Shown here in pieces: positions 9,372 to 53,868 of a stretch of DNA of 58,756 bases. A model generated the notes under the pieces. The model saw nothing but the letters and a program-made list of their open reading frames with translations. It had not been told where the DNA came from and did not search any database. Every line of letters begins with the position of its first letter. Within the stretch, counting starts at the first letter, position 1. Made by a program: the position numbers and the translations under genes. Origin of the DNA: an uncultured Ruminococcus sp. (GTDB lineage Bacteria; Bacillota; Clostridia; Oscillospirales; Acutalibacteraceae); NCBI GenBank assembly GCA_902798755.1, contig CADBYC010000009.1:1-58756 (forward strand). The letters are read 5' to 3'.

Positions 9372-10298
9372 TCAGTTATTATTTTTCTCAATAAACCCTT
9401 CAACGATCCCGATGTATCTCTCTTCATCTTCAAAGTAGCTCATGCCATGGTCCGCATGGGGGAAGGTGTGCATTTCGATCATCGAGGGATTCGCCTTCTG
9501 CACCTCTTTGCTCATGCTCATTGGTACAAAGTCGTCCGCCTCACCGTGGAGAATGACGATCGGTATCTTCGAACGTTTTACTTCATCAGCGGCAGTGGTA
9601 GCGTTGACTCTCAGCCTGCCGTATACAAGCCCGGCAAGCCAGATGATCGGCCATAGCAGATCGGGATTCAGCTTGATCTTGCGGCAAACATGCTTGATGA
9701 TATCCTTCGGAGAGTTGAACGGACAGTCCGCGACGATTCCCTTGACGTTTCGCGGCAGCCTCTGTCCCGACGCCATCAGTACCGTACCGCCGCCCATGGA
9801 GATACCGAACAGGAAAATGCTCTTGTCTTTTCCGAATCGCTTGTTAGCGAATTTGACCCATGAAATAACGTCGAACCGTTCCTTGATACCGAAGCAGATC
9901 GTGTGCCCCTGAGAGCGCCAGTGCGCGCGTTCGTCAACGATCAGCACATTGTAGCCTTCATGGATCAGGTGCAGCCCGATACCCGCAAAGTCACGCACCG
10001 CCGATCCGCGATAACCGTGAAAGCAGATGCACAGTGGTTTATCGTCGTCACCCTCAAAGTATCTTGCGCTCAGCTTTAGCCCGTCATAGGAGCGAATGGT
10101 ATAAAACTTACACGGAGTCGTATTCACCTCGTTGATCCTCTCGCTGACCCTCTTACCGTAGGCAAGCCGTTCGATGGCGGGAGGATTCTTCGTTTCGGAC
10201 ATATCTTTCTTCGGTGAGTAAAACACCTTATAATAGGAAGCGTATAATCCCGCTAAAATCAGCAGTATCACCGCGGTGACGATCAGGAAAGCAACCAT
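9372..10298 (-). CDS. membrane-anchored alpha/beta hydrolase
   Basis: 308 residues. An N-terminal hydrophobic segment (2-22) anchors the protein. The hydrolase core shows an oxyanion-type 'FHGYRG' (93-98), nucleophile elbow GISMGG (Ser167), acid residue in HGEADD (Asp255 or 256) and His284 in HADHG. It resembles the YqkD/BEM46-like serine hydrolases of Firmicutes; the substrate could be a lipid ester or a small acyl ester. The start at 10298 follows GGAGGTGG. It is transcribed alone, leftward. Two paralogues with the same layout occur at 17.5 and 21.5 kb. Confidence 0.85.
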   Translation of the reverse strand: MVAFLIVTAVILLILAGLYASYYKVFYSPKKDMSETKNPPAIERLAYGKRVSERINEVNTTPCKFYTIRSYDGLKLSARYFEGDDDKPLCICFHGYRGSAVRDFAGIGLHLIHEGYNVLIVDERAHWRSQGHTICFGIKERFDVISWVKFANKRFGKDKSIFLFGISMGGGTVLMASGQRLPRNVKGIVADCPFNSPKDIIKHVCRKIKLNPDLLWPIIWLAGLVYGRLRVNATTAADEVKRSKIPIVILHGEADDFVPMSMSKEVQKANPSMIEMHTFPHADHGMSYFEDEERYIGIVEGFIEKNNN

Positions 10299-10441
10299 TT
10301 TTCCACCTCCGAATCTGATAGTTTGATTGTAGCACATCGCCTTTTGAATTGCAATCAAATTATAATATATATAAATCGAAAAGCCCCTGTAATATTTTTA
10401 TAAAATTTTTTCGAATAAGTAGTGATTTTTTGATTTTGATA

Positions 10442-10931: not shown

Positions 10932-11780
10932 TCATTTCTTGCTTCCGGCGATCGTGATGATGATGTCGAGCACCTTGAGGTAGAGCCAGATCACGGTGAA
11001 CGCGAGACCGAACGCCGCCTGCCACTCATATTTCTTCGGCAGCTTGTCGTTGACCACGTGTTCGATGGTATCAAAATCGCAGATCAGGAACAGCGCCGCA
11101 ATGATGATGAAGATCACGGAGAAGCCGATAGAGAACACGAGATTACCCCGGATCGCCTGAACGATCGGTCTGGTGAACGGAATGAACGAGCAGATGAGCG
11201 TCAGCAGTGTGACGGCGATCACTGTGACGAACAAGGTCAGCATGATCGCTTTGAATTTCTTTGTCACGCGGATAACGCCCTTGGTATACAGCAGCGCCAT
11301 CACTAATATAATGACCATAGTGATCGCCAGCGCCAGAGCGCCGAGGTATTCCATGCCCGCAAGCACCTTGAAGATCAGGAAGGAGATGAAGTAGCCCTGA
11401 GTGATGCAGTATAATGCGCCTGTTACGGGAGTGGTCGCCTTCGCGAAGAACGCGAGCAGCTGGAAGACGATCGCCGCAATAACGCTGACGCCTAACGCGA
11501 TCGCTTCGGTTATATACATCGTTACCTCAAAGCCCTTGATGTTGACGGTGAATTCTTCACCGGTAGCGAACGTCTTAGCGAGTATCAGCTGTAAAACGAT
11601 GCCCACGATCGTGAACAGCAGGAAGTAGACGGTCTTTGCGGTGATGCCGCCGTAGGTAGCGGCATTTGTTACGTCATACTCATTGACCTTGTTGAGTCTA
11701 CGCATGACAGGGTTGGAAGCCAAGATAGAGTTCCTCTTTTTGGCAGTAGTACCATTTGCGTTGTTAGTGAGTCTGTTCAT
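10932..11780 (-). CDS. Bax inhibitor-1/YccA family membrane protein
   Basis: 282 residues. A polar N-terminus with 'ASNPVMRRL' (typical of the YccA-like subgroup) is followed by about seven membrane helices between residues 55 and 275. The last helices contain 'FDTIEHVV' and 'EWQAAFGLAFTVIWLYLKVL', typical family sequence. BI-1 proteins are membrane pH-sensitive calcium-leak channels or protease regulators; no bacterial role is proven here. The start at 11780 with AGAAGGAT upstream is preferred to an upstream frame start. It is divergent from the lipid operon that starts at 12041. Confidence 0.85.
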   Translation of the reverse strand: MNRLTNNANGTTAKKRNSILASNPVMRRLNKVNEYDVTNAATYGGITAKTVYFLLFTIVGIVLQLILAKTFATGEEFTVNIKGFEVTMYITEAIALGVSVIAAIVFQLLAFFAKATTPVTGALYCITQGYFISFLIFKVLAGMEYLGALALAITMVIILVMALLYTKGVIRVTKKFKAIMLTLFVTVIAVTLLTLICSFIPFTRPIVQAIRGNLVFSIGFSVIFIIIAALFLICDFDTIEHVVNDKLPKKYEWQAAFGLAFTVIWLYLKVLDIIITIAGSKK

Positions 11781-11933
11781 ATGATCCTTCTTTCTGTAAA
11801 GCGTTGGTGTGTGGCTTGCAACTCTATGATAATATATCCCGTCGTTCTTTTCAAGTAAATATTTTGTAATCAAATCCGGTGTATAAGCGGAGGCTGTCAG
11901 CACCTCTGCCAAGAAGAACCATGTCGAATTTCC

Positions 11934-11962
11934 TTGCTTTTTAGGGGCATGTGTGATAAGAT
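11934..11962 (+). promoter_or_regulatory. possible promoter of the lipid operon
   Basis: TTGCTT (11934-11939), a 17-base spacer and TAAGAT preceded by TGA (extended -10). It is the best candidate upstream of the first operon gene. Confidence 0.4.
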
Positions 11963-12040
11963 GATTACCGATAATGTTAAAAAGGAGAGTTTCGGCTTTT
12001 TGCGGTTATCCTGTCGATAATCGGCTGAGCCTGTACGCTT

Positions 12041-13966
12041 ATGGGTGACCTCGGTCTCGGAAAATATAAGACCATCAGAGAATTTGTCGAGTCAAAGCTC
12101 CGTGCGTTTGAAGAGCGCGGACTGACGATGCAAACGCTGTTTTCCCTGATGTTTCAGGAAAAAGAGAATATCATGTATGAGCGCAGCCGCGGTTATCATA
12201 TCGAGACCTTCTCCTACGGCGAAGCGGAGGACAGGATCCTCTCCCGCGCTGTATTGTTAATAGAACGGCTCTCCGATATTGAGCCGGGCTCTGTCGTCGG
12301 ACTGTCGATGGACAACTCCCTTACATGGATCGAGATGTTCTGGGCGATCATTCTGTGCGGCTATAACCCGCTGCTCATCAACCTGCGCCTGTCACAGGAG
12401 ATGGTCGAGGGCGCTTTGCGCGATTGCCACGCGAAAGCCGTCGTATCCGATCAGCGCGCCTATTCCGTCAAGACCGTCATGAGCGGCGACGTCGGGTTAT
12501 CCGATCAGCGCATAAAGCCCGATACCTTCGGCGAAGAGATCCTTGTCATGACGTCGGGCACTTCCCGTCATGTCAAGATTTGTGCCTACTCAGCCGAAGA
12601 ACTGTATCATCAGATCAAGGGCAGTTACGGCATTATCCGAGAGTGTGACTTGATCAAGCGCCATTATGAAGACCGCTTGAAGCTTTTGACCTTCCTGCCG
12701 TTTTACCACACCTTCGGTCTGGTAGCGGTCTACATTTGGTTCTCGTTCTTTTCCCGCACCTTTGTAGAGCTGAAGGACATGCAGCCTGATACCATCACGG
12801 GCACGGTGCGCCGCCATAAGGTGACTCACATCTTTGCCGTTCCGCTGTTCTGGGAAAAGGTATACGAACAGGCGAAAAAGACCATTCATCTGCGCGGTGA
12901 GGAAACGAAGCAAAAATTCGAGAAAGCCATGCGCCTGAGAGAGAAGCTCGGCGATTCCTCTGCGGGTAAGCTGTTCTCAAAGCTTGCGTTCAAGGAAGTC
13001 CGCGAGAACCTCTTCGGCGAGAGCATCCGCTTTATGATCACGGGAGGCTCGACCATCTCTAAAGACGCCATGCGCTTTTTCAACTTCATCGGCTACCACC
13101 TTGCCGACGGCTACGGCATGAGCGAGATCGGCATCACTTCCGTGGAGTTATCCGCAAAGCCGAGTATCCTCAACGACTGCTTCATCGGCAAACCGATGGA
13201 CGGCATGGAGTACCGTATCAATGAGCACGGAGAGCTCGAAGTCAAAGGCAAAGCCGTCGCGCGGTACATCATCGAGGACGGAAAGCGCAAGATCATCAAT
13301 CGGGATTTCTTCCAAACCCATGATCTCGCAAAATGTGTTGGCGGTCATTATCAGATACTCGGCAGAAAAGACGATCTGATCATCGGCAGCTCGGGAGAGA
13401 ACCTCAACCCGAACATGATCGAGCCTGAACTGAAGCTCGACGGCGTGAACGAAGTCTGCCTGATCGGAGCGCAAAGCGGCGATCAGGTCACGCCGACATT
13501 GGTGTTCTCCGTCAACCGCTTTATCACCGCGGAAAAGCTCACAGCCATCGACCGCGCGGTCAAAGCAAAGCTCGATGAAATCCACCTGTCCTCTGAGATC
13601 CGCCGGCTGCTCTACGTCAGCGACCCGCTGATCGTCGGCGACGAATTCAAGCTCAACCGCCTGCGCTTAAAACAGCAGTTGGAGGATAACGCCTTTACAG
13701 CTGTCGTACCGTTACGGCTCAGCGACAGTCTGCACGACGAGCTCGCTCAGCGGATCAGAGAATTCTTTTCAGCCGCATTAAATATAAAGACTGAGGAGAT
13801 CGCCGATCAGGCGGATTTCTTCCTTAATCTCGGCGGTTCCTCGCTCGACTACTTCGGCATGATCAGCGCCATCGAAAACGAGTTCTCGGTCAAGATACCT
13901 GTCGAAAAAAGCGCTGAGCTGTCCACCGTAGCGGCGTTCCACCGCTATTTGTCCGAAACGCTCTAA
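12041..13966 (+). CDS. acyl-activating enzyme fused to a carrier domain
   Basis: 641 residues. Residues about 20-545 are an ANL-superfamily adenylation domain: MTSGTS (around 170) in the ATP loop, LPFYHTFG (about 222), DGYGMSEIG (A5-like), GRKDDLIIGSSGENLNPN (about 445) and a terminal Lys region FKLNR. The ATP loop lacks the usual TTGxPK, so activity is not certain. Residues about 565-641 are an acyl-carrier domain with LGGSSLD, whose Ser carries phosphopantetheine. The fusion could activate a fatty acid and load it on itself. No strong ribosome site precedes the ATG, and an in-frame stop lies 5 codons upstream. It heads a seven-gene operon with PlsC-, ACP- and LRAT-type genes. Confidence 0.85.
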   Translation: MGDLGLGKYKTIREFVESKLRAFEERGLTMQTLFSLMFQEKENIMYERSRGYHIETFSYGEAEDRILSRAVLLIERLSDIEPGSVVGLSMDNSLTWIEMFWAIILCGYNPLLINLRLSQEMVEGALRDCHAKAVVSDQRAYSVKTVMSGDVGLSDQRIKPDTFGEEILVMTSGTSRHVKICAYSAEELYHQIKGSYGIIRECDLIKRHYEDRLKLLTFLPFYHTFGLVAVYIWFSFFSRTFVELKDMQPDTITGTVRRHKVTHIFAVPLFWEKVYEQAKKTIHLRGEETKQKFEKAMRLREKLGDSSAGKLFSKLAFKEVRENLFGESIRFMITGGSTISKDAMRFFNFIGYHLADGYGMSEIGITSVELSAKPSILNDCFIGKPMDGMEYRINEHGELEVKGKAVARYIIEDGKRKIINRDFFQTHDLAKCVGGHYQILGRKDDLIIGSSGENLNPNMIEPELKLDGVNEVCLIGAQSGDQVTPTLVFSVNRFITAEKLTAIDRAVKAKLDEIHLSSEIRRLLYVSDPLIVGDEFKLNRLRLKQQLEDNAFTAVVPLRLSDSLHDELAQRIREFFSAALNIKTEEIADQADFFLNLGGSSLDYFGMISAIENEFSVKIPVEKSAELSTVAAFHRYLSETL

Positions 13967-13981
13967 AGCGATCACTATATT

Positions 13982-14626
13982 ATGTTACATACGTTATTCA
14001 ATTGGTTTGTGAAAGTGACAGGCTGGCCTGTCCAGTACTTCTGTTTTCATACAAAGATATATTATGAAGATAAGTCCGTCCGGTCGCGCCGTATCCGCGG
14101 CAAGGCGATCCTGATCTCGAACCACCTGTCCGTCTACGATTATCCTGTCGCGATGTTCACGTTCCCGACGCGTACCCTGCGTTTCCAGATGTCGGAGCTT
14201 GTCATGAAAAAGCCCGTTCTCGGTACTTTCCTGAGAATGCTCGGCGGCATTTATGTCAACCGCGATTCGCATGATTTTTCTTTTATGGCAAAATGCGAGA
14301 AGATACTCGCTAAAGGCGGCGTCATCGGTATCTGCCCCGAGGGGAGATTACCGATGAAAGGGGAGACCCCTCCGCTCGCGTTCAAGACAGGAGCCGCATA
14401 TCTCGCGCTCACGACGGATACCCCGATCATCCCGATGGTCACCGACGGCAACTACTTTCGGTTTAGACAGCGTGCCCATGTCATCATCGGTACGCCGATC
14501 AACCCCTCCGATGTCGCCGATCCCGCGTTGAGCGACAAGGAGAATATCGAGAAGCTGACGCGCGTCATGCGTGAGAAAATCATATCATTAGGAAAAATGC
14601 TGAATGAAAGAACAAAAGAAAGCTAA
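13982..14626 (+). CDS. PlsC-type acyltransferase 1
   Basis: 214 residues, the size of 1-acyl-glycerol-3-phosphate acyltransferases. NHLSVYD (about residues 47-53) is the catalytic H-x4-D box, and PEGRLP (about 119) is the substrate-binding EG-R motif. 'TPIIPMV' near residue 150 is another family block. It would transfer an acyl group from ACP or CoA to a hydroxyl of a phospholipid precursor. It is 15 bases after the acyl-activating gene and overlaps the next acyltransferase by 23 bases, so translation is coupled. The natural acceptor is unknown. Confidence 0.85.
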   Translation: MLHTLFNWFVKVTGWPVQYFCFHTKIYYEDKSVRSRRIRGKAILISNHLSVYDYPVAMFTFPTRTLRFQMSELVMKKPVLGTFLRMLGGIYVNRDSHDFSFMAKCEKILAKGGVIGICPEGRLPMKGETPPLAFKTGAAYLALTTDTPIIPMVTDGNYFRFRQRAHVIIGTPINPSDVADPALSDKENIEKLTRVMREKIISLGKMLNERTKES

Positions 14627-15254
14627 GCTGTTTTCTCTGAAATACTGGTTTGTCGATTTCGTCAGGGTCACGGGCGCGATTCCCACCTATTTGTGGTATC
14701 GCCCGAAGATCGTCTACGAAAGCAAATCCGCGAAGAAGAAGATCCGCGGCGGCGCACTCTTGATGTGCAATCACAATTGCTTTTATGACCCGATCTATCT
14801 GATGATCGCGGTCTGGTACCGTCGTCATCATTTCATCATCAATAAGCAGTTTTTAGAAACAAAGGCAAGATGGTTTTTAGAGCACGTTCTGTGCATCCCC
14901 ATCGATATCGAGAATACAGGTTTTCAGACCATGAAAACGATCAACGACCACCTGACAAGCGGCGAGATCGTGTCGATCTTCCCGGAAGGCCATATCAACG
15001 ACGGTTCCGGCGAGATGCGACAGTTCAAGAGCGGTATGGTGCTGATGGCGATGCGCGCCAAGGTGCCGATCGTCCCCGTCTATATCCGCGCGCATGAACC
15101 GCGCTTTAGCCGCTTGAAGATCGTCATCGGCGAGGCGGTGGATATCAACAAGCTGTTTGACTCCCGCCCCTCGATGTCCGATATCGAGAAAGTGACGGAA
15201 CAGCTCTTTGAAAAAGAAAGCCAGCTCAAAGAGATCGCCTTTCAACTGAAATAA
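14604..15254 (+). CDS. PlsC-type acyltransferase 2
   Basis: 216 residues. NHNCFYD (H-x4-D) and FPEGHIND mark the same family as its upstream neighbour, but identity between the two is low, so they are probably not a recent duplication and may use different acceptors or positions. 'KVPIVPVYI' is the conserved downstream block. The start lies inside the end of the preceding gene, and the following AMP-binding gene is 12 bases downstream. Two acyltransferases side by side with two acyl-activating enzymes suggest stepwise acylation of one product. Confidence 0.85.
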   Translation: MKEQKKAKLFSLKYWFVDFVRVTGAIPTYLWYRPKIVYESKSAKKKIRGGALLMCNHNCFYDPIYLMIAVWYRRHHFIINKQFLETKARWFLEHVLCIPIDIENTGFQTMKTINDHLTSGEIVSIFPEGHINDGSGEMRQFKSGMVLMAMRAKVPIVPVYIRAHEPRFSRLKIVIGEAVDINKLFDSRPSMSDIEKVTEQLFEKESQLKEIAFQLK

Positions 15255-15266
15255 TAGGAGGATATC

Positions 15267-16781
15267 ATGATCAATCCCGACAGAGAAAGATTCAGAAAAT
15301 ATACCGACTCTGCAGAGTTCGAACGCCTTGTCGACATGGACAGCGTGTCCGAAATGTGGCAGCGATCCGTGTGCGATTACCCCGACGTGATCGCCATTGA
15401 GGATAACGGCAATCAGTATACCTATGCGCAGATCGACGCGGATGTCAGCCGCTTTCGTTCGCTGATAAAGCGCGAGGACAAAACACACCGCGTCGGTATC
15501 TATTGCCCCAATTCCTATGACTTTGTCCGCGCGTATCTCGCCGTGACGACCCTCGGCTATACCGCTGTGATCCTGCCGCCCCAGCTCGACGGCGTGACCG
15601 TGTTCGGCTGTGTGATGAAGTTCGGTATCGACATGCTGATCTATCATCCTGCTTTGAAAGAGAACACCGCCTTCTTATCGGAGAAGCGCCCCGACGTCAC
15701 GCTGATCAAGAGCGATTCACAGGGCGAAACAGATACCGAAATGGTGTTCCCCTCGGGGGATACTCCCTGTGTGATCATGTTCACAGGCGGCACGACAGGT
15801 AAGAGCAAAGGAGCGTTACTTTCCAACTCCGCCGTCATGCAGGGCACTGTCAACGGCTGTTACGGCGTATGGAACGTGTTCTCTCAGCGCTATCTGCTCA
15901 TACTCCCGCTGTCGCACGTGTTCGGCTTGATCCGCAACCTGATGACGGCGCTGTATACAGGCTCGACCCTGTACATCTGCCGCAACAATAAAGATATGTT
16001 CCGCGATATCGCGATGTTCCGTCCGACGATCCTGGTTCTCGTGCCCGCGCTCGCGGAAATGGCGCTGAACCTCTCGAAGAAGTTCGGCAGGAATATGCTC
16101 GGCGACTCGTTGAAAACCATCATCTGCGGAGCCGCCGCCGTACCGCCTTATCTGATCCGTGAGTATAAAAGCGTATTCGGCATCGACATTTTCCCCGGCT
16201 ACGGTTTGACCGAGAGCGCGAACCTTGTCACAGGCAATCCCGAGAATCTGAGCAAGCCCGAATCCGTCGGACTCCTCTATCCGAACCAGCAGGTCAAGGT
16301 CGTCGACGGAGAACTCCGACTCAAGGGCGCGAATATGATGCTCGGCTATGTCGGCGAAGAGGAAGACGGCGTCTATGACGAAGAAGGCTACTTCTGCACA
16401 GGCGATCTCGTTCGTTTTGACGATGACGGCTTCTTGTACATCACAGGCAGGATCAAGGAGATCATCGTCCTCCCGACAGGCGAGAATATTTCTCCCGCTG
16501 AGTTAGAGGTCAGATTCCTTGAACTGAACCTGATCCAAGACGCGCAGGTGTATGAGGATATATCCGACGACGGCAGTCATTTCTTAGCGCTCGAGGTCGT
16601 GCCCCGCGCGCCTGAGATCGCAAAGCTCGGTGATGCCGATCCCGTTCAGACGATTACTGACGAGCTTGAGAAGATCAACAGTACCCTGCCCACCTACCAG
16701 CGTGTGTCCCGCATCATCGTCCGTGATTCGGACTTTGAGCGCACGCCCAGTATGAAGATCAAGAGGTATCACAAATGCTGA
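15267..16781 (+). CDS. AMP-binding acyl-CoA/acyl-ACP synthetase
   Basis: 504 residues with the full ANL signature: MFTGGTTGKSKG (about residues 172-183, ATP loop), LPLSHVFG (about 214), GYGLTES (A5), YFCTGDLVRF (A7), TGRIKEIIV (A8) and a terminal Lys region in MKIKR. The ATP loop is canonical, unlike the first enzyme of the operon. It probably activates a fatty acid and passes it to the ACP encoded next. The start follows AGGAGGATATC. The stop overlaps the start of the ACP gene by several bases. Confidence 0.9.
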   Translation: MINPDRERFRKYTDSAEFERLVDMDSVSEMWQRSVCDYPDVIAIEDNGNQYTYAQIDADVSRFRSLIKREDKTHRVGIYCPNSYDFVRAYLAVTTLGYTAVILPPQLDGVTVFGCVMKFGIDMLIYHPALKENTAFLSEKRPDVTLIKSDSQGETDTEMVFPSGDTPCVIMFTGGTTGKSKGALLSNSAVMQGTVNGCYGVWNVFSQRYLLILPLSHVFGLIRNLMTALYTGSTLYICRNNKDMFRDIAMFRPTILVLVPALAEMALNLSKKFGRNMLGDSLKTIICGAAAVPPYLIREYKSVFGIDIFPGYGLTESANLVTGNPENLSKPESVGLLYPNQQVKVVDGELRLKGANMMLGYVGEEEDGVYDEEGYFCTGDLVRFDDDGFLYITGRIKEIIVLPTGENISPAELEVRFLELNLIQDAQVYEDISDDGSHFLALEVVPRAPEIAKLGDADPVQTITDELEKINSTLPTYQRVSRIIVRDSDFERTPSMKIKRYHKC

Positions 16782-17029
16782 CAAGACCTGAGATATTCGA
16801 ACAACTCAAAGATATACTCATTTTTGCGGACGACAAAAACCGCGATGTCATCGAGCATTGCGACGAGAGCACCAAGCTCGTTGCTGACCTTGGTTTCACT
16901 TCCGTTTCCGTATTATATATGGTCATCGCCATTGAGGAGAGCTTCGGTATCGTTTTCGGCGACGTTTCGATGAACGACTTTCCCACCGTCGGCGACGTCG
17001 TCAGCTATATCGAGGCGCGGCTTCAATGA
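16775..17029 (+). CDS. acyl carrier protein
   Basis: 84 residues, acidic and helical, with DLGFTSVS around residues 33-40; Ser in this motif is the phosphopantetheine site (the usual form is D-S-L, here F-T-S). It is not the fatty-acid-synthase ACP by context, since it lies between a synthetase and an LRAT-like gene, so it is likely a dedicated carrier. The start overlaps the preceding stop (ATGCTGA) and the stop overlaps the next start (ATGA), both signs of tight coupling. Confidence 0.85.
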   Translation: MLTRPEIFEQLKDILIFADDKNRDVIEHCDESTKLVADLGFTSVSVLYMVIAIEESFGIVFGDVSMNDFPTVGDVVSYIEARLQ

Positions 17030-17451
17030 AGTGGGAGTATAAGGACTGTCAATACGGCGATATCATCCGCGTCAAGCTCGGCTCCGTCTATCACTACGGT
17101 ATTTTTGTCAGCGATAATGAGGTGATCGCATTCGGTCTCCCTCCGACAGCCGAGAACCTGCAAAATCAGCAGGCGATCAAGGTGCTCGCTACCGATATCA
17201 ACGTTTTCTCCTACGGTAATCTTGTCGAGACCGCTGTGCTTTCTTTCAAAGAACGTATGAAGCGCCGCAGTCCCGAGCAGACCGTAACCCTTGCCAGAGA
17301 GCGTATCGGCGAGGGCGGCTACAACATTATCCACAACAACTGCGAGCACTTCGTCAATGATGTTGTATTTGGCGAGAAGGTATCACAGCAGGAGCGCTCC
17401 GTCCGCGAGAAGTGGCGTCGCTTTCAGTCTGAGAAATCCAACGATCAATGA
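17026..17451 (+). CDS. LRAT-like (NlpC/P60 superfamily) acyltransferase
   Basis: 141 residues. 'GSVYHYGIFV' holds the conserved His and 'NNCEHFVN' the catalytic Cys of the lecithin-retinol-acyltransferase domain, a permuted papain fold. Members form an acyl-thioester on Cys and transfer it to an amine or hydroxyl. Next to an ACP and an acyl-activating enzyme, an acyl-ACP donor is the natural guess. No signal peptide is present, so it acts in the cytoplasm. Alternatively it could be a hydrolase. It shares 4 bases with the ACP gene. Confidence 0.85.
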   Translation: MKWEYKDCQYGDIIRVKLGSVYHYGIFVSDNEVIAFGLPPTAENLQNQQAIKVLATDINVFSYGNLVETAVLSFKERMKRRSPEQTVTLARERIGEGGYNIIHNNCEHFVNDVVFGEKVSQQERSVREKWRRFQSEKSNDQ

Positions 17452-17472
17452 TCCTTCAGAATAGGATATAAC

Positions 17473-18399
17473 ATGCTATACATTTATCTGTTACTTGGCC
17501 TGATACTGTTTTTGATCATCTTTGTTTTCGCACCGGCGGCGGTATGCTATCGGTCTGTTTTCGGGCGCAGAAAAACACTCCCGCTCGACAGCGAAAAGCT
17601 CTATAAGCCCGCTATCGAACCGTATAAAGAGAAGATGATCTCCGACCGCGACGCTCTGCAAGCGCATGGCTGTAAACGGTTGACGGTCACCGCCTACGAC
17701 GGCGTGAAGCTCTGCGGCGATTACTATGACCGCGGCGCTGACAAGACCGCGATCATGATACACGGCTACAACGCCGACCCTTATGTAAATCTCGTGTCGC
17801 CCGCAAAATGGCTCTTTGACGAGGGCTTCAACGTTCTTGTGATCTGTCACCGTGCGCATGGTGAGAGCGGCGGCGAACGCTGCGGAATGGGCTTGATCGA
17901 GAAGAACGACGTCCTGACGTGGCTCAGATTCATCTTGGACGAGAATCCCCGCCGGTATGTCCTGCTGTACGGTATGTCTATGGGCGGCACGACGCTCGCG
18001 TATCTTTCCAACTCGCTCGACGATCCGCGCGTACCGTGTATGGTCATCGACTGCGGTTATATTTCCACGGAAAATCAGCTTCGCCACGACGCAAAGCGCA
18101 TGCACATGCCGCCTTTGTTGATCCCCTTGATACGCCGACTCGGCATATGGGATCAGCATATCGATATCCGTGAGCGGTCAATAGACCATTTGAAAGAAGC
18201 GCAAAAGCCGATCCTCTTTATCCACGGCACCGCCGATCTCACCGTTCCTCTCGAAGAAGGAAAGCGCAATCTCGAAGCCTGTTCCTCTGAGAAGCGCATG
18301 ATCATCGTCGAGGATGGCGGCCATACCACCGCTTTTCAGACGAACGAGAAGCAGGTGACCGCTGAGATGGGGGAGTTCCTCCGTCAGTATTTCAAGTGA
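17473..18399 (+). CDS. membrane-anchored alpha/beta hydrolase in lipid operon
   Basis: 308 residues. An N-terminal hydrophobic segment (about 2-24), 'IHGYNAD' (oxyanion region), GMSMGG (nucleophile Ser near 171), HGTADLTVP (acid) and GGHTT (His) give a complete serine-hydrolase triad. It is paralogous to the hydrolases at 9.4 and 21.5 kb. As the last gene of the operon, 21 bases after the LRAT-like gene, it may release or edit the acyl product at the membrane. The substrate is unknown. Confidence 0.85.
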   Translation: MLYIYLLLGLILFLIIFVFAPAAVCYRSVFGRRKTLPLDSEKLYKPAIEPYKEKMISDRDALQAHGCKRLTVTAYDGVKLCGDYYDRGADKTAIMIHGYNADPYVNLVSPAKWLFDEGFNVLVICHRAHGESGGERCGMGLIEKNDVLTWLRFILDENPRRYVLLYGMSMGGTTLAYLSNSLDDPRVPCMVIDCGYISTENQLRHDAKRMHMPPLLIPLIRRLGIWDQHIDIRERSIDHLKEAQKPILFIHGTADLTVPLEEGKRNLEACSSEKRMIIVEDGGHTTAFQTNEKQVTAEMGEFLRQYFK

Positions 18400-18440
18400 G
18401 CTTTCACTGGCTCGTCTTTGTTTGTTGTTAGCTAAGTGTT

Positions 18441-18449
18441 TTATCCACA
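18441..18449 (+). promoter_or_regulatory. lone DnaA-box-like site
   Basis: TTATCCACA, a perfect match to the consensus DnaA box, in the 148-base gap before the DegV gene. CCACAG and CTGTGG around it could also pair as a small hairpin. One box alone may be chance. Confidence 0.3.
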
Positions 18450-18547
18450 GAGCTGATATTCATTCTGTGGAACTATAGATTATGTCAGTAAAATTGCCGC
18501 ATCCTTTCGTGCTGCGCAATATCATATAAAACAGAAAGGAAAAGAAT

Positions 18548-19483
18548 ATGAACGATTACATCATCATGGCGGACGCGGGCTGCGACCTCTCCGCTGAATT
18601 CCAGGAAAAATACGACGTCAAGGTCATCAACGGTCATCTGGTACTGCCCGGCAAGGGCGACGTGCCCTCTTTCATGAAGTGGGAGGACACGACCTTAGAG
18701 CAGTTCTATGCCGACCTCAAAAAGAACCCTTCCGACTACGCGACCGCTCCGCCCAATACGACAGAGTATGAGAACTTCTTTGAACCCTTTGTCAAAGAGG
18801 GAAAGGCGATCATCTGTGTGACTATTTCATCCACCATGAGCGGCTCCTTCGATTTCGCGACCGCCGCCCGCAAGAATATCCTCGCTAAATACCCCGACGC
18901 GAAAATCGAGCTGATCGATTCCATGCGTTTCGGCCCGGGCTTCGGCTTGATGGTGGTACACGCTTCTATCCTGCGTTCACAGGGCAAGAGCTTTGAAGAA
19001 GTGTCGCAGTATCTTGTAAAGAACCGCAACCGCTTCCATCAGGCGGGCTGGCTTGACGACCTCAGCTTTGTCGCAAAAAAGGGCAGACTGACCCATTCCA
19101 AGGCGTTCTTCGGCACGCTCGCGGGCATCAAGCCCATCGGCGAATTCGACTCCGGCGGCATGACCACCGTCCTCGGCAAGGCAAAGGGCGCAAAGGCGGC
19201 ATATGCCGTCCTGCTCAAGTACATCGAAGCGACGATCGAAAATCCTGAGGAGCAGTATATCTTCATCGCTCAGTCCTCGCGCTATCCGCAGGCTGAGGCG
19301 TATAAGAAGATGCTCGAAGAGAAGTTCAGCCCCAAGGGTGTATTTATCATCGACGTGTTCCCGTTCTGCGGTATCAACGTCGGCCCCGGACTGATGGCGG
19401 CTTATTATATGGGCAAGCCGATCTCCGACGATCTGAGCACCGAGCGTGAGCTGATCGAGCGGTTCATCGCCGAGTCGAAGTAA
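18548..19483 (+). CDS. DegV family fatty-acid-binding protein (FakB-like)
   Basis: 311 residues. 'TISSTMSGS' (about 92-100) is the carboxylate-binding segment of DegV proteins, and 'DDLSFVAKKGRL' (about 170) the second signature. DegV/FakB proteins hold a fatty acid for phosphorylation by FakA. A FakA-type gene lies 250 bases downstream and a lipid operon upstream, which supports that role. The start follows AGAAAGGAAAAG. It is slightly longer than typical DegV proteins (about 280). Fatty-acid specificity cannot be read. Confidence 0.85.
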   Translation: MNDYIIMADAGCDLSAEFQEKYDVKVINGHLVLPGKGDVPSFMKWEDTTLEQFYADLKKNPSDYATAPPNTTEYENFFEPFVKEGKAIICVTISSTMSGSFDFATAARKNILAKYPDAKIELIDSMRFGPGFGLMVVHASILRSQGKSFEEVSQYLVKNRNRFHQAGWLDDLSFVAKKGRLTHSKAFFGTLAGIKPIGEFDSGGMTTVLGKAKGAKAAYAVLLKYIEATIENPEEQYIFIAQSSRYPQAEAYKKMLEEKFSPKGVFIIDVFPFCGINVGPGLMAAYYMGKPISDDLSTERELIERFIAESK

Positions 19484-19491
19484 TACAAAAG

Positions 19492-19537
19492 AACAGAGCA
19501 GCGTCATTCCGTTTACCGATCAACGGCGCTGCTGTTT
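19492..19537 (+). terminator. terminator after the DegV gene
   Basis: GCAGCG pairs with CGCTGC around a long loop, with AACAG and CTGTT extending the stem, followed by the palindromic repeat at 19538. Confidence 0.5.
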
Positions 19538-19703
19538 ATACTAATCCTTAATAAAAATCTTTATCATCTATTGCGCTATATTTCGTATAGCTTTGTTGGG
19601 CTCCTTGACAGGCGCCAGCCTGTCTGCGTCTCCCGTCGCGCTATCCGAAATATATCAATATATCACTAATATCTGATTAAATCTTTTTATCAAGGATTAG
19701 TAT
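19538..19703. repeat. palindromic MITE-like element, copy 1 (166 bp)
   Basis: The ends ATACTAATCCTT and AAGGATTAGTAT are exact inverted repeats; matching continues inward with A/T changes. The centre contains CTTGACAGGCGCCAGCCTGTC, itself largely self-complementary. There is no coding capacity. It lies between the DegV and fakA genes and ends 28 bases before fakA. Copies 2 and 3 are at 29.0 and 41.1 kb. Confidence 0.75.
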
Positions 19704-19731
19704 TATCTCTGAAAGATTGGTAGTCTGATAT

Positions 19732-21372
19732 ATGTCAACAAGAAGAATCAACGGAATCCATCTGGAGAAGATGGTCAAAAACGGTCTTGCTGTTTTACAG
19801 CGGCACGAGGACGAGGTCAATCGGCTGAACGTCTTTCCTGTTCCCGACGGCGATACGGGCACGAATATGGTGCTCACCCTCGGCAACGGTATCCGCTACG
19901 CAAAGTCGAGCGAGGACGCGGGTGCGTATCTCAGGAGTCTTTCCGACGGTATGCTCCTCGGCGCGCGTGGAAATTCAGGCGTGATCCTGTCGCAGTTTTT
20001 CAAGGGCTTTGCGGTCGAACTGACGCGCTCGCCCCTGATCGGTCCGGGAGAACTGAGGAACGGTCTGATCCGCGGCTACCGCTGTGCGTATGACGCGGTC
20101 GTCCACCCTGTAGAGGGCACGATCCTGTCCGTCGCACGCGAGGGTATCGAGCATATCCGCACCCAGATCACCCGCAATTCCTCTATCGAAAGCATCCTCT
20201 CCATGTACATTGCCGAAATGCGCAAGACCCTTTCCTTTACGCCTGAGATGCTCAGCGTACTCAAGGAGGCGGGGGTCGTCGACAGCGGCGCTTACGGTTT
20301 TATCCTGATCTTTGAGGGTATGCTGAAATGCTTATACGGCGAGGTGATCGATCCCAAGGAGCTGCCCTTGCCGCAGACTCAGCCGCCTGTTGATCTGTCC
20401 TTGTTCAATGAGAATTCAGAATTCAGCGATGGCTACTGCACCGAGTTCATCCTGCAAAGATTAGTCAATTCAAAGTACAGGCAGGATTTCAACAAGGACG
20501 ATTTCATCGCTGAGTTGCGCTTCTACGGCAACTCGATTGCGGTCGTCGTCGATGGCACGCGCGTCAAGGTGCATATCCATACGCTCTATCCCGCTAAGGT
20601 GATCGCTTTTGCTCAGCAGTACGGCGAATTCCTGACCTTCAAGATGGATAACATGCAGGTACAGCATAACGAGCGCGACTTGATCGTTGAAAAGAAACAG
20701 GAGCACAAGCCGCTGGCGGTGATCGCTGTCGTCAACGGCGAGGGGCTGCACACGCTGTTCTCCAATCTCGGCTGTGATATCGTAATCGACGGCGGTACGA
20801 CGATGAATACCTCATCCGCGGAATTCGTCGAAGCGTTCTCTCAGGTGGACGCCGACGCGATCGTCGTCCTGCCCAATAATCCCAATATTATTCTTGCCGC
20901 GAACCAGGCGGTCGAGTTGAGCAAGCGGAAGAACGTGACGGTCATTGAGTCGAGGAGCGTGGCGCAGGGGTACTTCGCAATGGCGATGGATATCCCCGAC
21001 AGCGACGATACCGCGTTCCGTATCTCTCAGATGCAGAGCGGTATCGCTGATATCGCGACCATCAGCCAGACGGTCGCCTCGCGTGATTATAGCTTTCATG
21101 AGATCAGTTGCCGCAAGGGCGACGAGATCGCGCTTCTTGACAGTGAGATCGTCAGCGTCGGCTACGATTATGCCAAGACGATCCTCGATACGATGGCTGT
21201 CATCGAGGATATCGACGATAAAGAAACCTGCGTACTGTTCCGCGGTATCGGCGTTCCCGAGGAGAGAGAACAGGAGCTCTATGAGCTTCTGTCCGCGAAG
21301 TATCCGATGATGGATTTTGAGTTCATCGACGGCAAGCAGGAGATCTATCACTGGATCATCGGTATCACTTGA
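19732..21372 (+). CDS. fakA: fatty acid kinase FakA (DAK2/DegV fusion)
   Basis: 546 residues, the usual length of FakA/YloV. Residues 1-200 are the ATP-binding DAK2 domain with PVPDGDTGTNM (36-46, metal-binding Asp residues) and GARGNSG (77-83). A middle domain (about 210-310) and a C-terminal DegV-like domain (about 315-546) complete the family layout. FakA phosphorylates a fatty acid held by FakB, giving acyl-phosphate for phospholipid synthesis by PlsX/PlsY; plsY is present at 53.2 kb. No strong ribosome site is seen. The repeat upstream separates it from the DegV gene. Confidence 0.9.
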   Translation: MSTRRINGIHLEKMVKNGLAVLQRHEDEVNRLNVFPVPDGDTGTNMVLTLGNGIRYAKSSEDAGAYLRSLSDGMLLGARGNSGVILSQFFKGFAVELTRSPLIGPGELRNGLIRGYRCAYDAVVHPVEGTILSVAREGIEHIRTQITRNSSIESILSMYIAEMRKTLSFTPEMLSVLKEAGVVDSGAYGFILIFEGMLKCLYGEVIDPKELPLPQTQPPVDLSLFNENSEFSDGYCTEFILQRLVNSKYRQDFNKDDFIAELRFYGNSIAVVVDGTRVKVHIHTLYPAKVIAFAQQYGEFLTFKMDNMQVQHNERDLIVEKKQEHKPLAVIAVVNGEGLHTLFSNLGCDIVIDGGTTMNTSSAEFVEAFSQVDADAIVVLPNNPNIILAANQAVELSKRKNVTVIESRSVAQGYFAMAMDIPDSDDTAFRISQMQSGIADIATISQTVASRDYSFHEISCRKGDEIALLDSEIVSVGYDYAKTILDTMAVIEDIDDKETCVLFRGIGVPEEREQELYELLSAKYPMMDFEFIDGKQEIYHWIIGIT

Positions 21373-21386
21373 TGGTTTAGAACAAA

Positions 21387-21402
21387 TGTTTCACGTGAAA
21401 CA
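21387..21402. other. parS: parS site for ParB/Spo0J
   Basis: TGTTTCACGTGAAACA is a perfect match to the 16-bp parS consensus bound by ParB/Spo0J. AAA and TTT flanks extend the perfect palindrome to 22 bp (21384-21405). It is intergenic, 14 bases after fakA. parS sites usually cluster near the replication origin. Confidence 0.9.
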
Positions 21403-21497
21403 TTTGGATAGGTCAATCGGTTTTATGCAAAAGAATTAATCAACTATCATTGACTCAGATTGACACCGCTGTCGGTCTGTTGAAATAAGGAGGCAGT

Positions 21498-22436
21498 ATG
21501 CCTTTTTGGATTTGGATCATTATTATCGCGGTCATCGTGTTCGGCATTTTGCCGTTGCCGATACTGGGCTTTTATCTCTATTCCGTCCTGCTGGTGAGGA
21601 CGTCTAAAAAGAAATGGGGCAGAGAGTGCAGTATCCCCGATGACGAAGAATACAAGTGCATGTTTGACATCGGTATCGCTTGGGATGAACGATATGCTTC
21701 CCGCAAACAGCCCGTCGAGATCGAAAGCGACGGACTAAAGCTCGTCGGCGAGTACTTTGACTTTGGTTCCGATACCTCTGTCATCATCATTGCGGGCAGA
21801 ATGGAATCGCTTTTGTATTCCTACTACTTTGCTGAGCCGTACCGAAAGCTCGGATATAACATACTCGTGATCGATAACCGCGCTCATGGCCTGTCACAGG
21901 GCAGGTTCCTGTCGCTCGGACATAATGAGTACCGCGATATACTCAAATGGGGCGAATTGCTCCATGATCAGTTTCATCAGAGAAGCATCGTGATCCACGG
22001 TATCTGTATCGGCTCATGCGTCGGCTTGTTTGCGTTGTGCTCGCCCGACTGTCCCGATTACTTCAAGGGGATCGTTGCCGAGGGAATGTTCACGACCTTC
22101 CATGATTCCTTTGTCAATCATCTTGTGGACGGTCATCACCCCATCGAGCCCGCGACCTTCTTTGTCATGAATTATATCAAGCTGTTCACGGGCGCCGATG
22201 TCGTGCACGACGGACCGCTGTATCGGATCAATCGGCTCAAAAGACCGATCCTGTTCTTACACAGCAAGCAGGACGTCTTTTCGCTCCCTGAAGAAGTACA
22301 GCAGGTGTATGACCGCTGTCAGAGTGAGAAGAAGCTCGTCTGGTTTGAAAAAGGCGACCATTCCCGCGTGCGAATCAACGCACCTGAAAGATATGACGAA
22401 ACTGTAATTGACTTTTTCAGCCACTTGGATATATAA
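21498..22436 (+). CDS. alpha/beta hydrolase paralogue with Cys at nucleophile site
   Basis: 312 residues. An N-terminal membrane segment (about 2-30), 'VIDNRAHGLSQG' like its paralogues, and an elbow that reads HGICIGSC, so the expected nucleophile Ser is Cys (about residue 173). Asp in SKQDVFSLP and His in KGDHSR complete a possible triad. The oxyanion region is also altered ('IIAGRMES'). It might be a cysteine hydrolase, a weak enzyme, or a non-catalytic binder. The start follows AAGGAGG. The neighbours are fakA and a zinc-ribbon protein. Confidence 0.75.
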   Translation: MPFWIWIIIIAVIVFGILPLPILGFYLYSVLLVRTSKKKWGRECSIPDDEEYKCMFDIGIAWDERYASRKQPVEIESDGLKLVGEYFDFGSDTSVIIIAGRMESLLYSYYFAEPYRKLGYNILVIDNRAHGLSQGRFLSLGHNEYRDILKWGELLHDQFHQRSIVIHGICIGSCVGLFALCSPDCPDYFKGIVAEGMFTTFHDSFVNHLVDGHHPIEPATFFVMNYIKLFTGADVVHDGPLYRINRLKRPILFLHSKQDVFSLPEEVQQVYDRCQSEKKLVWFEKGDHSRVRINAPERYDETVIDFFSHLDI

Positions 22437-22570
22437 TGATTTTATTGATAACCCGCTGTCAGCTGACGACGGTTATCATACGTTCATTCTGATTCGCAGT
22501 TGATATCCTATGAGAGCGGATCGGTTATATCAACCGCCGTTTTATCGGCCGAAATTATAGGAGGAAATAT

Positions 22571-23359
22571 ATGATTTGTAAACAGTGTGGTAACGAAGTC
22601 GGCCCTGACGCGAAGTTCTGTGCCGTTTGCGGTACGCGTGTTGAACGCGTAGATGTTGAGCCTCAGCAGGTTCAGTCTGTTGAGGAGCCGCAGGTCGCTC
22701 AGCCTGTAGAACAGCCGCAGTATGCTCAGCCTGTAGAACAGCCGCAGTACGCACAGCCTGTCGAACAGGTACAGTATGCTCAGCCTGCAGAACAGCCGCA
22801 GTATGCTCAGCCTGTAGAACAGCCGCAGTATGCTCAGCCTGTCGAGCAGCCCCAGTACGCGCAGCCTGTCGAACAGGTACAGTATGCTCAGCCTGTCACA
22901 CCGCCTCAGCAGTATGGACAGCAGCCTTATAATCAGCCTCAGCAGAATCAACCTTATGGTCAGCAGCCTTACGGTCAGCCTCAGCAGTATCAGCAGTATG
23001 GCCAGCAGCCTTACGGTCAGCAGCCGTATGGTCAACAGCAGTACGGTGCTCCCGTAGTAACTGATCCAGTAGAGCGCAGTATGTCAAAGAGCACTCTCGT
23101 TTTCGGTATCCTGGCTATCTCGTTTGCCTTTATTCCGTATATCAACTTCTTAGGCATCATCTTCGGCGCGATCGCGCTGAGCAAGGCAAAAGCTTATAAG
23201 AGAGCAGGCTATGTGCTCGCAGGCAGAGCTAATGTAGGTAAGATCCTTGGCTTGATCGGTTTGATCGTCGGTATCGTTTTCACCGTCATCTTTACGATCC
23301 TCATTATTGGCGCGATTGCCGCAGTAGCTTCTTACAGCAACTACAATTACTACTATTGA
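22571..23359 (+). CDS. zinc-ribbon, QP-rich repeat, membrane protein
   Basis: 262 residues. The N-terminal zinc ribbon has CKQCG (C3, C6) and CAVCG (C18, C21). A low-complexity middle (about 40-155) repeats 'QPQYAQPVE' and then 'QQPYGQ' units. The C-terminal 90 residues carry two membrane helices of the DUF4190 type. The zinc ribbon faces the cytoplasm if the tail inserts as expected. The start follows AGGAGG. The repeat region is expandable by slippage. Function unknown. Confidence 0.75.
   Translation: MICKQCGNEVGPDAKFCAVCGTRVERVDVEPQQVQSVEEPQVAQPVEQPQYAQPVEQPQYAQPVEQVQYAQPAEQPQYAQPVEQPQYAQPVEQPQYAQPVEQVQYAQPVTPPQQYGQQPYNQPQQNQPYGQQPYGQPQQYQQYGQQPYGQQPYGQQQYGAPVVTDPVERSMSKSTLVFGILAISFAFIPYINFLGIIFGAIALSKAKAYKRAGYVLAGRANVGKILGLIGLIVGIVFTVIFTILIIGAIAAVASYSNYNYYY
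22700..22912 (+). repeat. tandem coding repeats of 24-30 bases
   Basis: Near-identical units encoding QPQYAQPVEQ or VQYAQPVEQ occur about eight times, then QQPYGQ-type units continue to 23045. Copies differ mainly in synonymous third positions. Confidence 0.7.
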
Positions 23360-37616: not shown

Positions 37617-38858
37617 CTATGTGGCGCTGGGCGTCACGAGATAGCCTTGCCTTTGTAAAATGAAGATAGCCTCCTCCACGGAAACTGTCCTATGCTCCGG
37701 CGGAGTGTTGATGTGAGCATAAAGCTCGGGATTGTAGGGCTCATTCTTCTTTAAGATGTTGTAAATGGCAGTGAGCAGCATTCTTGCAATGGCAATGATA
37801 GCTTTTTTGTGACCCCTGCGCTTTTTTAGGTTATTGTAGCGATTTCGAATTTCAGGGTTGCTTTTCTTACGAATTGCACACAGCGCACACTGAACAAGCA
37901 ACGGTTTGATGTAAGCTCCGGCTCTGCTGATTCTGGTAGTTTTCTTCTTTCCGGCGCTTTCGTTGTTCTGAGGTGTAAGACCCGCCCAAGAGCAAAGATG
38001 CTTGGATGTCGGGAACACGGACATATCCACGCCGATTTCAGAAATAATGCCGATAGCGGCAAAGGCTTGGATACCCGGCACCGTCATAACAAGTTCAAGC
38101 TGAGAAAGATACTTTTGAGCAACAGAGAGGATAAGAGATTCCAGATTGGCTTTACAGAGATCAAGTCCATCCATGTGAGAACGGATAATGCGGAGCTTTT
38201 CAGCCTGTTCGACACACATTTCTCCGTCAACGGCGGCAAGGATTTGTTCGTCGGTCGCTTTCATCCCTCTGGTGCGAAAAGCGGAAACGTTGGTGAGCTT
38301 CTCTGACGGAGCCTCCAACAAGCGTGTGGTAATAGCGGTAGCCGCTTTACCAAACACATCAGAGAAAACGTCGTCTAATTTGATGTTGGAAACGGTAAGA
38401 CAATTTTGAGCACGGTTCTTTTCTCCTGTAGTAAAATTCGTGAGTTTCCAACGATAGCGAACTAAATCCCGAAGCTGGCGAATATCTGCAGGAGGAATAA
38501 AGCTGCCGGAAACCAAATCGTGTTTGAAAATATCCGCAATCCATTTTGCGTCTTTCTTATCTGTTTTCTTTCCTCTAATCGCTTTGACATACTTTGGATG
38601 AGCGAGAACAATATTACAGGTTGGCTCTAAGATGTTGTAGATAGGAATCCAGTATTTTCCTGTAGATTCCATACAAACATCCTTACAGTTGTGATTTGCA
38701 AGCCAAGCGGAGCATTTACGCAGATCCCCTGTAAAGGTAGAAAACCTTTTGCTGACATAAGTGGTGACTCCCTGATTGTTCGTAGAAGCAATACAAGCGA
38801 CAAGGAAAGATTTGTGGACATCCATTCCACAGCAGATTGGGTAAACGATTTTTAACAT
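37617..38858 (-). mobile_element. IS110-family transposase
   Basis: 413 residues with both family domains. The N-terminal RuvC-like DEDD domain has CGMDVHK (Asp13), MESTGKYW (Glu), and [10 protein letters not shown] (two Asp). The C-terminal domain has '[17 protein letters not shown]', '[16 protein letters not shown]' and 'RISRAG' with the catalytic Ser region. The start at 38858 follows GAGGGATG. IS110 transposases recombine DNA guided by a bridge RNA. No terminal inverted repeats or target duplication were found, as usual for the family, so the exact ends are not set. Confidence 0.95.
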
Positions 38859-38859
38859 A

Positions 38860-39030
38860 ACACATCCCTCAAAAAATACAGGGTTCAATGCCCTACTTAT
38901 TTGTGCTTGAAAGAGCATCCGGCACACATAATGATTCAGTCCAGCACAAGCTGAGCCTACTCACCTTCACGTGCTCTGTAGTGTGCCTGCTTTCTCAAGC
39001 ATATTCTAACACATTTTAACTTGCTGCGTT
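38860..39030 (-). ncRNA. candidate bridge RNA of the IS110 element
   Basis: The region 5' of the transposase gene is noncoding and strongly structured. On the transposase strand GCTTGA...AGCA and GGCACAC (39000 to about 38980) pair with GTGTGCC...TGCT...TCAAGC (to 38905). An inner stem AGCAC/GTGCT encloses a loop with GTGAGTAGGCTCAG. A second hairpin lies at GGG/CCC near 38881-38894. Position and structure fit the bridge RNA of IS110-group elements. The guide loops are not assigned. Confidence 0.55.
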
Positions 39031-53167: not shown

Positions 53168-53868
53168 CTATTGAACTGATTATTCGCACCTTAGCTACCA
53201 TGATCATCGCGTATCTGATCGGCAGTTTCAATCCTGCTATCGTGATCACGCGGCTCAAAACAGGAAAGGATATTCGCACGATGGGTTCGGGCAACGCGGG
53301 CTTTACCAACGTGTTGCGCTCTGTCGGCAAGGGACCCGCGATCGCGACGATCGCGCTGGACTACTTAAAAGGAACCGTAGGCGTATTGATCGGCTGGTGG
53401 ATCTTCTCACAGCTGACCGTCACCAATGAAGTTTCTCCGACCGAGTACGTCATCTACGGACGATATCTTGCGGGATTGTTCGTTATCCTCGGACATTCCT
53501 TCCCGATCTATTACGGCTTCAAGGGCGGCAAGAGCGTTGTTACGGCAAATGCTTTGATGCTGGTGGTCGACTGGCGTGTGTTCCTGATCGTATTAGGCAC
53601 CTTTTTGATCATCTTCTTTTTGACGAAGCTGATCTCCTTGGGATCGATCATCTGCGCGGGACTGTATCCTGTATACACCCTGCTGATCACCTATTTCTGC
53701 GATTATCTGCCGAACCTCGGCACGGAAAATGAGCTGAGATTCCGCTTTGTGCTGATATCGACCGCCTGTGCTTTCGCGGTCGGCGCGCTCGTCATCTTCC
53801 GTCATAAGGATAATCTGAAACGCCTGATCAACGGAGAAGAAAAGCGCATCAAAGCGAAAAAGGATTGA
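53164..53868 (+). CDS. plsY: acyl-phosphate:glycerol-3-phosphate acyltransferase
   Basis: 234 residues, multipass membrane protein. 'GSFNPAIVITRLKTGKDIRTMGSGNAGFTN' (about 20-50) and 'GHSFPIYYGFKGGKSV' (about 112-128) are the PlsY loops. It starts phosphatidate synthesis from acyl-phosphate, which FakA or PlsX can supply. Placement after der is usual. Confidence 0.95.
   Translation: MTIELIIRTLATMIIAYLIGSFNPAIVITRLKTGKDIRTMGSGNAGFTNVLRSVGKGPAIATIALDYLKGTVGVLIGWWIFSQLTVTNEVSPTEYVIYGRYLAGLFVILGHSFPIYYGFKGGKSVVTANALMLVVDWRVFLIVLGTFLIIFFLTKLISLGSIICAGLYPVYTLLITYFCDYLPNLGTENELRFRFVLISTACAFAVGALVIFRHKDNLKRLINGEEKRIKAKKD

Follow-up and report, generated by a model that had tools for sequence, protein, structure and literature searches.

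The DNA analyzed here is a 58,756-nucleotide (nt) stretch of contig CADBYC010000009.1 (assembly GCA_902798755.1) from an uncultured Ruminococcus sp., referred to below as the window. It carries a block of ten genes coding for ligases, carriers, acyltransferases, hydrolases, and fatty acid-handling proteins, seven of which had been described in a sequence-only reading as a dedicated acyl-activation and transfer operon ending at position 18399. All seven open reading frames (ORFs) were recovered on the plus strand where that reading had placed them. These first seven ORFs are labeled g1 to g7, and three further genes downstream are labeled g8 to g10:

g1, 12041-13966, plus strand: adenylate-forming ligase with a fused carrier domain (641 amino acids); Pfam AMP-binding and PP-binding above cut-off.
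g2, 13982-14626, plus strand: PlsC-type acyltransferase; PF01553, 76.6 bits, with HX4D motif.
g3, 14604-15254, plus strand: PlsC-type acyltransferase, overlapping g2; PF01553, 79.8 bits, with HX4D motif.
g4, 15267-16781, plus strand: stand-alone adenylate-forming ligase; PF00501, 203.5 bits, AMP-binding and AMP-binding_C_3.
g5, 16775-17029, plus strand: free acyl carrier protein (ACP); PF00550, 28.3 bits (cut-off 20.8).
g6, 17026-17451, plus strand: LRAT-like protein; PF04970, 62.7 bits (cut-off 24.3).
g7, 17473-18399, plus strand: alpha/beta hydrolase with a Ser nucleophile and a hydrophobic segment near the N-terminus; Pfam Hydrolase_4.
g8, 18548-19483, plus strand: DegV/FakB-like fatty acid-binding protein; PF02645, 174 bits.
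g9, 19732-21372, plus strand: FakA/YloV-like kinase subunit; Dak2, FakA-like_M, and FakA-like_C.
g10, 21498-22436, plus strand: alpha/beta hydrolase fold with a Cys nucleophile and a hydrophobic segment near the N-terminus; assigned from alignment columns and comparison with 5g59.

The family assignments of the sequence-only reading were each backed by Pfam matches above the curated cut-offs. The tight packing it described was also borne out, with overlaps or gaps of no more than 23 nt between g1 and g7 (+15, -23, +12, -7, -4, and +21 nt, calculated from the ORF coordinates), and the gaps before g8, g9, and g10 are wider (148, 248, and 125 nt). Among the NCBIfam matches listed (the best 25 for g1 and g4), no model exceeded its own cut-off for g1-g7. 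The end at 18399 proved too short, as the conserved unit reaches 22436 through g8-g10, and the conserved set comprises ten genes rather than seven. The gene block is real, larger than first described, and well conserved.

Relatives of the block were collected by two routes. Protein searches with g1 and the LRAT protein covered, besides the source genome, 59 genomes of its genus and 38 of the order (97 relatives in all), from which 20 regions were taken, and a scan of genome contigs with a g1 alignment returned at least 593 matched stretches from at least 518 relatives, of which the best 80 were kept. The main count set comprises 96 relative loci, with the window and four contigs taken as duplicates on the basis of their lengths and matches (L076, L078, L080, and L142) excluded. 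Genes in these loci were counted by profile searches, and a locus at the end of a contig can lack genes simply because the sequence stops there. Because the loci were picked via g1, co-occurrence counts lean towards the cassette; scans of the genus and a PF04970 scan of the class serve as checks.

All ten genes were found in order in 23 of the 96 loci, and the g1 proteins of these loci are 44-79% identical to that of the window; the shared order is therefore more than chance. Order and tight packing persist in distant relatives. The comparison of gene order in related genomes, which the sequence-only reading had proposed as a check, thus upheld the arrangement and enlarged the set. Across the 96 loci, g1 was present in 96, g2 in 86, g3 in 76, g5 in 70, LRAT in 61, FakB (g8), near g1, in 61, FakA (g9) in 58, g10 in 52, and g4 in 46. 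In the genus comparison, matches to g1 and g10 were accepted as orthologues at E < 1e-60, weaker ones being regarded as other members of large families; g1 and LRAT were scanned in all 59 same-genus genomes, and FakA and g10 in 35 of them. The orthologues of g1 and g10 share the same 11 of these 35 genomes (G004, G006, G007, G008, G012, G013, G014, G017, G021, G026, and G035) and are absent from the other 24. Orthologues of g1 occurred in 19 of the 59 genomes, and LRAT matches were detected in 15 of those 19, whereas the remaining 40 genomes had none.

The LRAT-like protein g6 was closely associated with the carrier machinery. Its active-site residues, like those of the other proteins, were counted by alignment columns that include the window row and possibly the four duplicates, rows with less than 60% query coverage being dropped. 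His23, Cys106, and His108 were kept in 66 of 66 rows, and g6 matches PLAAT/HRASLS chains at E of about 1e-4. LRAT lies directly behind the ACP gene g5 in 56 of the 96 loci, with a median profile-bounded gap of 2 nt. When the window is included, there are 62 LRAT loci, and in 26 of them LRAT and a phosphopantetheinyl-transferase domain are coded in one ORF (17 with both motifs sought); a separate phosphopantetheinyl-transferase gene lies nearby in 7, and none was found in 29, among them the window, whose source genome has one phosphopantetheinyl-transferase match. The fusion in L116 (16961-17953) was confirmed by Pfam (ACPS, 26.1 bits; cut-off 25), and in L084 Pfam finds LRAT alone. The adjacency in 56 loci and the 26 fusions, together with the conserved residues, suggest that g6 may be an LRAT enzyme taking acyl groups from ACP. 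Separately, the phosphopantetheinyl-transferase motifs are missing in the fusions of L064, L066, L083, L084, and L103, which have apparently decayed.

The PF04970 scan covered 391 genomes of the class that were not selected through g1, although some may underlie loci that trained the profiles. It gave 18 hits above cut-off, source genome included, and 14 strong hits outside the source genome. An ACP gene lies directly upstream in 6 of these 14, which score 166-191 bits with the g6 profile. As these six are ACP-linked and the other eight are not, an ACP-linked LRAT subfamily exists, but not every LRAT of the class has this link.

Conserved active-site residues were also found in the ligases and carriers. 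In g1, the carrier Ser601 was kept in 98 of 100 rows (2 gaps) and the C-terminal Lys537 in 98 of 100, while g4 keeps its ligase motifs, with Lys497 in 47 of 48 rows (1 gap). Both ligases contain an LPxxHxFG motif (LPFYHTFG and LPLSHVFG), which is typical of acyl-/aryl-acid ligases and not of amino acid-activating domains. The structure model of g1 had a predicted local distance difference test (pLDDT) score of 90.4, and its nearest folds were A-PCP didomains and acid ligases (McyG A-PCP, CAR A-PCP, MatB, and MenE). Assigning the substrate of g1 by structure search was rejected, as these nearest folds act on differing acids. In the free ACP g5, Ser43 was kept in 71 of 71 rows and the customary preceding Asp is replaced; g4 and g5 are consecutive in 44 of the 96 loci.

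In addition, g8 and g9 resemble the fatty acid-binding and kinase components of FakAB. The NCBIfam DegV model was matched over its cut-off by g8, with the FakB1 equivalog below (89.3 bits of 350). All three Pfam FakA domains (DAK2, middle, and C-terminal) were above cut-off in g9, as was the NCBIfam YloV model, with the FakA_VfrB equivalog below (374.7 bits of 975). The PDGDTG motif residues, His281, and His283 of g9 are each conserved in 93% or more of 61 rows. The source genome has four FakA-like genes, and the operon copy is a separate, extra paralogue, since its identity is 82-85% with the counterparts in G004, G012, G017, and G035 and 38-42% with the other three of its own genome. The presence of g8, g9, and g10 ties the block to exogenous or released fatty acids. 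Conserved neighbors from a known pathway would have spoken against the sequence-only reading, and FakAB is such a pathway, but FakAB alone leaves the ligases, carriers, LRAT, and two PlsC homologues unexplained.

The two hydrolases of the block differ in their nucleophile. The triad Ser169, Asp255, and His284 of g7 was kept in 42 of 42 rows. In g10, Cys170 and Asp259 were kept in 55 of 55 rows and His288 in 54 of 55 (1 gap), and Cys170 aligns with the Ser of GFSMG (GxSxG) in the nearest solved relative, the Pyrococcus furiosus esterase Pf2001 (5g59). A search with the structure model of g10 (pLDDT 95.1) returned esterases, acylaminoacyl peptidase, and monoglyceride lipases. The PHA-synthase family was absent from the g10 matches, which were to general hydrolase families alone in Pfam and to none above cut-off in NCBIfam. 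PHA synthases and the SyrC/CmaE shuttles, which work from carrier to carrier, likewise have Cys at the nucleophile position. Adjacency, fusion, and residues are consistent with acyl transfer as a putative activity of g10. A further alpha/beta hydrolase resembling g7 and g10 is coded on the minus strand at 9372-10358, 1.7 kb before the operon, and has a counterpart near the cassette in L056 and L061.

We propose, tentatively and with slightly less than even confidence, that the ten genes form one cytoplasmic, membrane-associated pathway that would build an acylated lipid from scavenged fatty acids. In this pathway, g7 would free fatty acids from lipids, the FakB-like g8 would bind and the FakA-like g9 would phosphorylate fatty acids, and g1 and g4 would adenylate acids and load two dedicated carriers, the carrier domain of g1 and the free ACP g5. 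The PlsC-like g2 and g3 would transfer acyl chains from a carrier onto a hydroxyl group of a lipid of the glycerol or lyso type. The LRAT-like g6 would accept an acyl chain from g5 via Cys106 and hand it to a second acceptor, most likely a head-group amine or hydroxyl, and g10 may be a transacylase acting through a cysteine thioester. Activation by FakAB, acyl-ACP synthesis by the ligases, and acylation by the PlsC homologues would follow from what is known of these families. The observations in support of the proposal are the content and order of the genes, their co-inheritance, the intact state of the catalytic residues, the adjacency of LRAT and ACP, and the LRAT-phosphopantetheinyl-transferase fusions. 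The dedicated acyl-activation and transfer route put forward from the sequence is still the best reading, albeit with an incomplete gene set, and its product, whether an O-acyl lipid, an N-acyl lipid, or an amide, is one we infer. More specifically, an LRAT/PLAAT-type enzyme fed by a dedicated ACP instead of phospholipid, assisted by a Cys-nucleophile hydrolase-fold acyl shuttle, might make an N-acyl or unusual lipid from scavenged fatty acids, which we regard as doubtful but quite possible.

Several points weigh against the proposed pathway. Its substrates, donors, acceptors, and product are all predicted, and it is unusual for a single pool to be activated by both FakAB and ligases. The P-loop of g1 is atypical, with Lys in just 81 of 100 rows. 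The third triad position of g6 is Ala35 in the window, and the 66 rows have Gln in 45, Ala in 18, Glu in 2, and His in 1 at this position, whose equivalence was judged by eye; the difference from HRASLS3 is a point against equating g6 with PLAAT enzymes. The eight strong LRAT hits of the class that lack an ACP link had no ACP-profile match within about 1.5 kb on each side and score 40-71 bits with the g6 profile. In G045, the LRAT gene and g1 are on separate contigs. Cassettes lacking g3-g6 occur in L071, L140, L141, and L146, the last three of which carry a smaller set of FakB, FakA, MFS_2, g1, g2, and g10, so LRAT and the free ACP would be dispensable for the core function. In addition, eight loci have g1 without any of the other nine genes, as searched by tblastn. 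Finally, a promoter/terminator scan of 11700-22700 gave 13 of each, compared with averages of 9.1 and 9.5 in shuffled sequence (sd 2.9 each); transcript ends are therefore not fixed by the scan, and it did not show a single transcript over the ten genes.

The PlsC homologues bear on another explanation, ordinary phospholipid repair by a split counterpart of Aas/LplT, which we consider unlikely, though to be taken seriously. The ligase and carrier would make acyl-ACP and the PlsC-like enzymes would re-acylate lysophospholipids, with lysolipid imported by a transporter in some relatives and lysolipid and free fatty acid supplied by LRAT and the hydrolases, so that no new lipid would be formed. 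The His and Asp of the HX4D motif were kept in 95 of 95 rows of g2 and 81 of 81 rows of g3, and the motif Glu in 83 of 95 (Glu120) and 62 of 81 (Glu128), respectively; the source genome has two PF01553 genes beyond the operon. Ligase, carrier, and PlsC occur together, and phospholipases A are found among LRAT relatives (PMC4624172). The acyl-[ACP]--phospholipid O-acyltransferase model PRK08633 matches g2 at 51 bits and g3 at 83 bits, but its cut-off of 1221 bits is far from these scores. An MFS_2 transporter gene is present in 31 of the 96 loci and adjoins g1, g2, or FakA in many, whereas the window operon has no transporter gene and the one of the relatives is of the MFS_2 type. Moreover, two carriers, the LRAT-phosphopantetheinyl-transferase fusions, and an invariant Cys hydrolase are not obviously needed for repair. 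In L100, a FakB-MFS-FakA-g10 block precedes g1, and a second MFS gene lies between g1 and g2.

A secreted or signaling fatty acid amide or N-acyl lipid, made in an Oaa-like manner, appears fairly improbable. Here a ligase would load an ACP, and LRAT would replace the condensation domain and join the acyl chain to an amine. The genes g4, g5, and g6 are indeed consecutive, PLAAT/HRASLS enzymes include N-acyltransferases (PMC4624172), OaaA-OaaACP-OaaC of gut bacteria is a ligase-ACP-transferase set (PMC13142362), and LnsA, a permuted NlpC/P60 protein, is required for lipoprotein N-acylation (PMC7387801). However, there is no condensation domain among the Pfam matches of the ten proteins, the part of that Oaa source consulted gives no role to FakAB or to a pair of PlsC homologues, and g4 is missing from many of the loci in which ACP and LRAT are both present (g4 in 46 of 96, g5 and LRAT both in 56 of 96). 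No strongly hydrophobic segment was found in g6 (highest 19-residue mean hydropathy 0.92, at residue 53), unlike g7 and g10, and no signal-like N-terminus was seen by eye, which fits cytoplasmic acyl-ACP work better than the secreted lipoproteins of LnsA.

All 80 named records, the best 80 from at least 518 relatives, are metagenome-assembled genomes (MAGs) or uncultured genomes, labeled, for example, as Ruminococcus, Clostridia, Oscillospiraceae, Lachnospiraceae, Erysipelotrichaceae, Acholeplasmatales, and Bacilli. The host named is a herbivore (roe deer, water deer, reindeer, goat, sheep, cattle, buffalo, yak, or horse) in 42 of the 80 titles, and the remainder name no host. This pattern is a lead and not a test, as the collection may be rich in such MAGs. 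It could, with the lipase-like hydrolases and FakAB nearby, point to detoxification or storage, in which toxic dietary fatty acids would be locked away as neutral or bound esters, but this is very improbable, since the host pattern may just mirror the MAG collection and no triacylglycerol or wax-ester synthase family is among the Pfam matches of the ten proteins.

Some arrangements and neighboring genes are recorded here in their own right. In L070, L128, L131, and L150 the arrangement is divergent: g1-g2-g3-ACP-LRAT is accompanied by PlsX, a GT2 glycosyltransferase, and additional hydrolases, a hint that these species may make a glycolipid. In the Bacilli MAGs of L152, L153, L154, and L155, a g1 relative with 29-31% identity is found by itself, with no PlsC, FakAB, or LRAT, and its neighbor is a small gene that we take to resemble ribosomal protein S20. 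Right behind g10 in the window, 22571-23359 on the plus strand codes for a zinc-ribbon-like protein with QPVEQPQYA-type repeats, and similar genes lie behind g10 in L056, L058-L062, L065, L083, L086, and L094, the L083 copy being below the Pfam zinc-ribbon cut-offs. Farther away, the start of the ORF at 37617-38927 on the minus strand presumably belongs to an IS110-type transposase, and the ORF at 53164-53868 on the plus strand is, we assume, a PlsY-like acyl-phosphate acyltransferase.

If the proposed pathway is correct, a conserved route from scavenged fatty acids to a dedicated lipid exists in gut bacteria, and acyl-ACP is a donor for LRAT enzymes of which no description was found in the literature searched. 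The product could matter to the host, because related gut fatty acid amides act on host receptors (PMC13142362). Three enzymes of the block also lend themselves to direct tests, namely the LRAT linked to ACP, the hydrolase-fold protein with a Cys nucleophile, and the fusion of ligase and carrier.

Taken together, these are known enzyme families in a conserved arrangement of which we did not find a published description; the literature searched for the ten-gene set covers few subscription papers, so this is not proof that the set is unpublished. Like the Cys-nucleophile transferases (PHA synthases and SyrC/CmaE), g10 has a nucleophile-elbow Cys together with Asp and His, as seen in sequence columns only; its closest solved fold, however, is the plain esterase 5g59. 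The block resembles FakAB, which works with PlsX, in its DegV-like binding protein and FakA-like kinase, and a PlsX gene is present in 20 of the 96 loci. In contrast, FakAB works without adenylating ligases, LRAT, or additional PlsC genes, g8 and g9 miss the curated FakB1 and FakA equivalog cut-offs, and the window operon has no PlsX. The second, atypical ACP g5 has a parallel in AcpB of Enterococcus faecalis, a second ACP that favors exogenous acyl chains (PMC6509188).

Similar to Aas/LplT, a ligase would synthesize acyl-ACP before transfer by a PlsC-type enzyme, with a transporter gene in some loci (PMC11416262). However, PlsC and the acyl-ACP synthetase are separate genes in the window, where PRK08633 and PRK06814 score far below cut-off, the carrier is fused to a ligase, no LplT-type transporter is present in the operon, the relatives carrying MFS_2, and LRAT, FakAB, and a Cys-hydrolase are added. 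The stand-alone ligase g4 and the stand-alone ACP g5, followed by a transferase gene, are comparable to OaaA-OaaACP-OaaC (PMC13142362), whereas the block has LRAT in place of the condensation domain, along with PlsC homologues and FakAB. Unlike LnsA, which has a predicted signal peptide (PMC7387801), g6 has none by eye. With LRAT/PLAAT (HRASLS) enzymes, g6 shares the LRAT Pfam domain, the catalytic His, and the NCEHF motif. It differs from them in the third triad residue, which is His35 in HRASLS3 (PMC4624172) and is not kept in g6, and in the C-terminal hydrophobic segment of HRASLS proteins, which g6 lacks. In addition, g6 lies next to, or is fused with, carrier-protein machinery, a context that suggests an acyl-ACP rather than a phospholipid as its probable donor.

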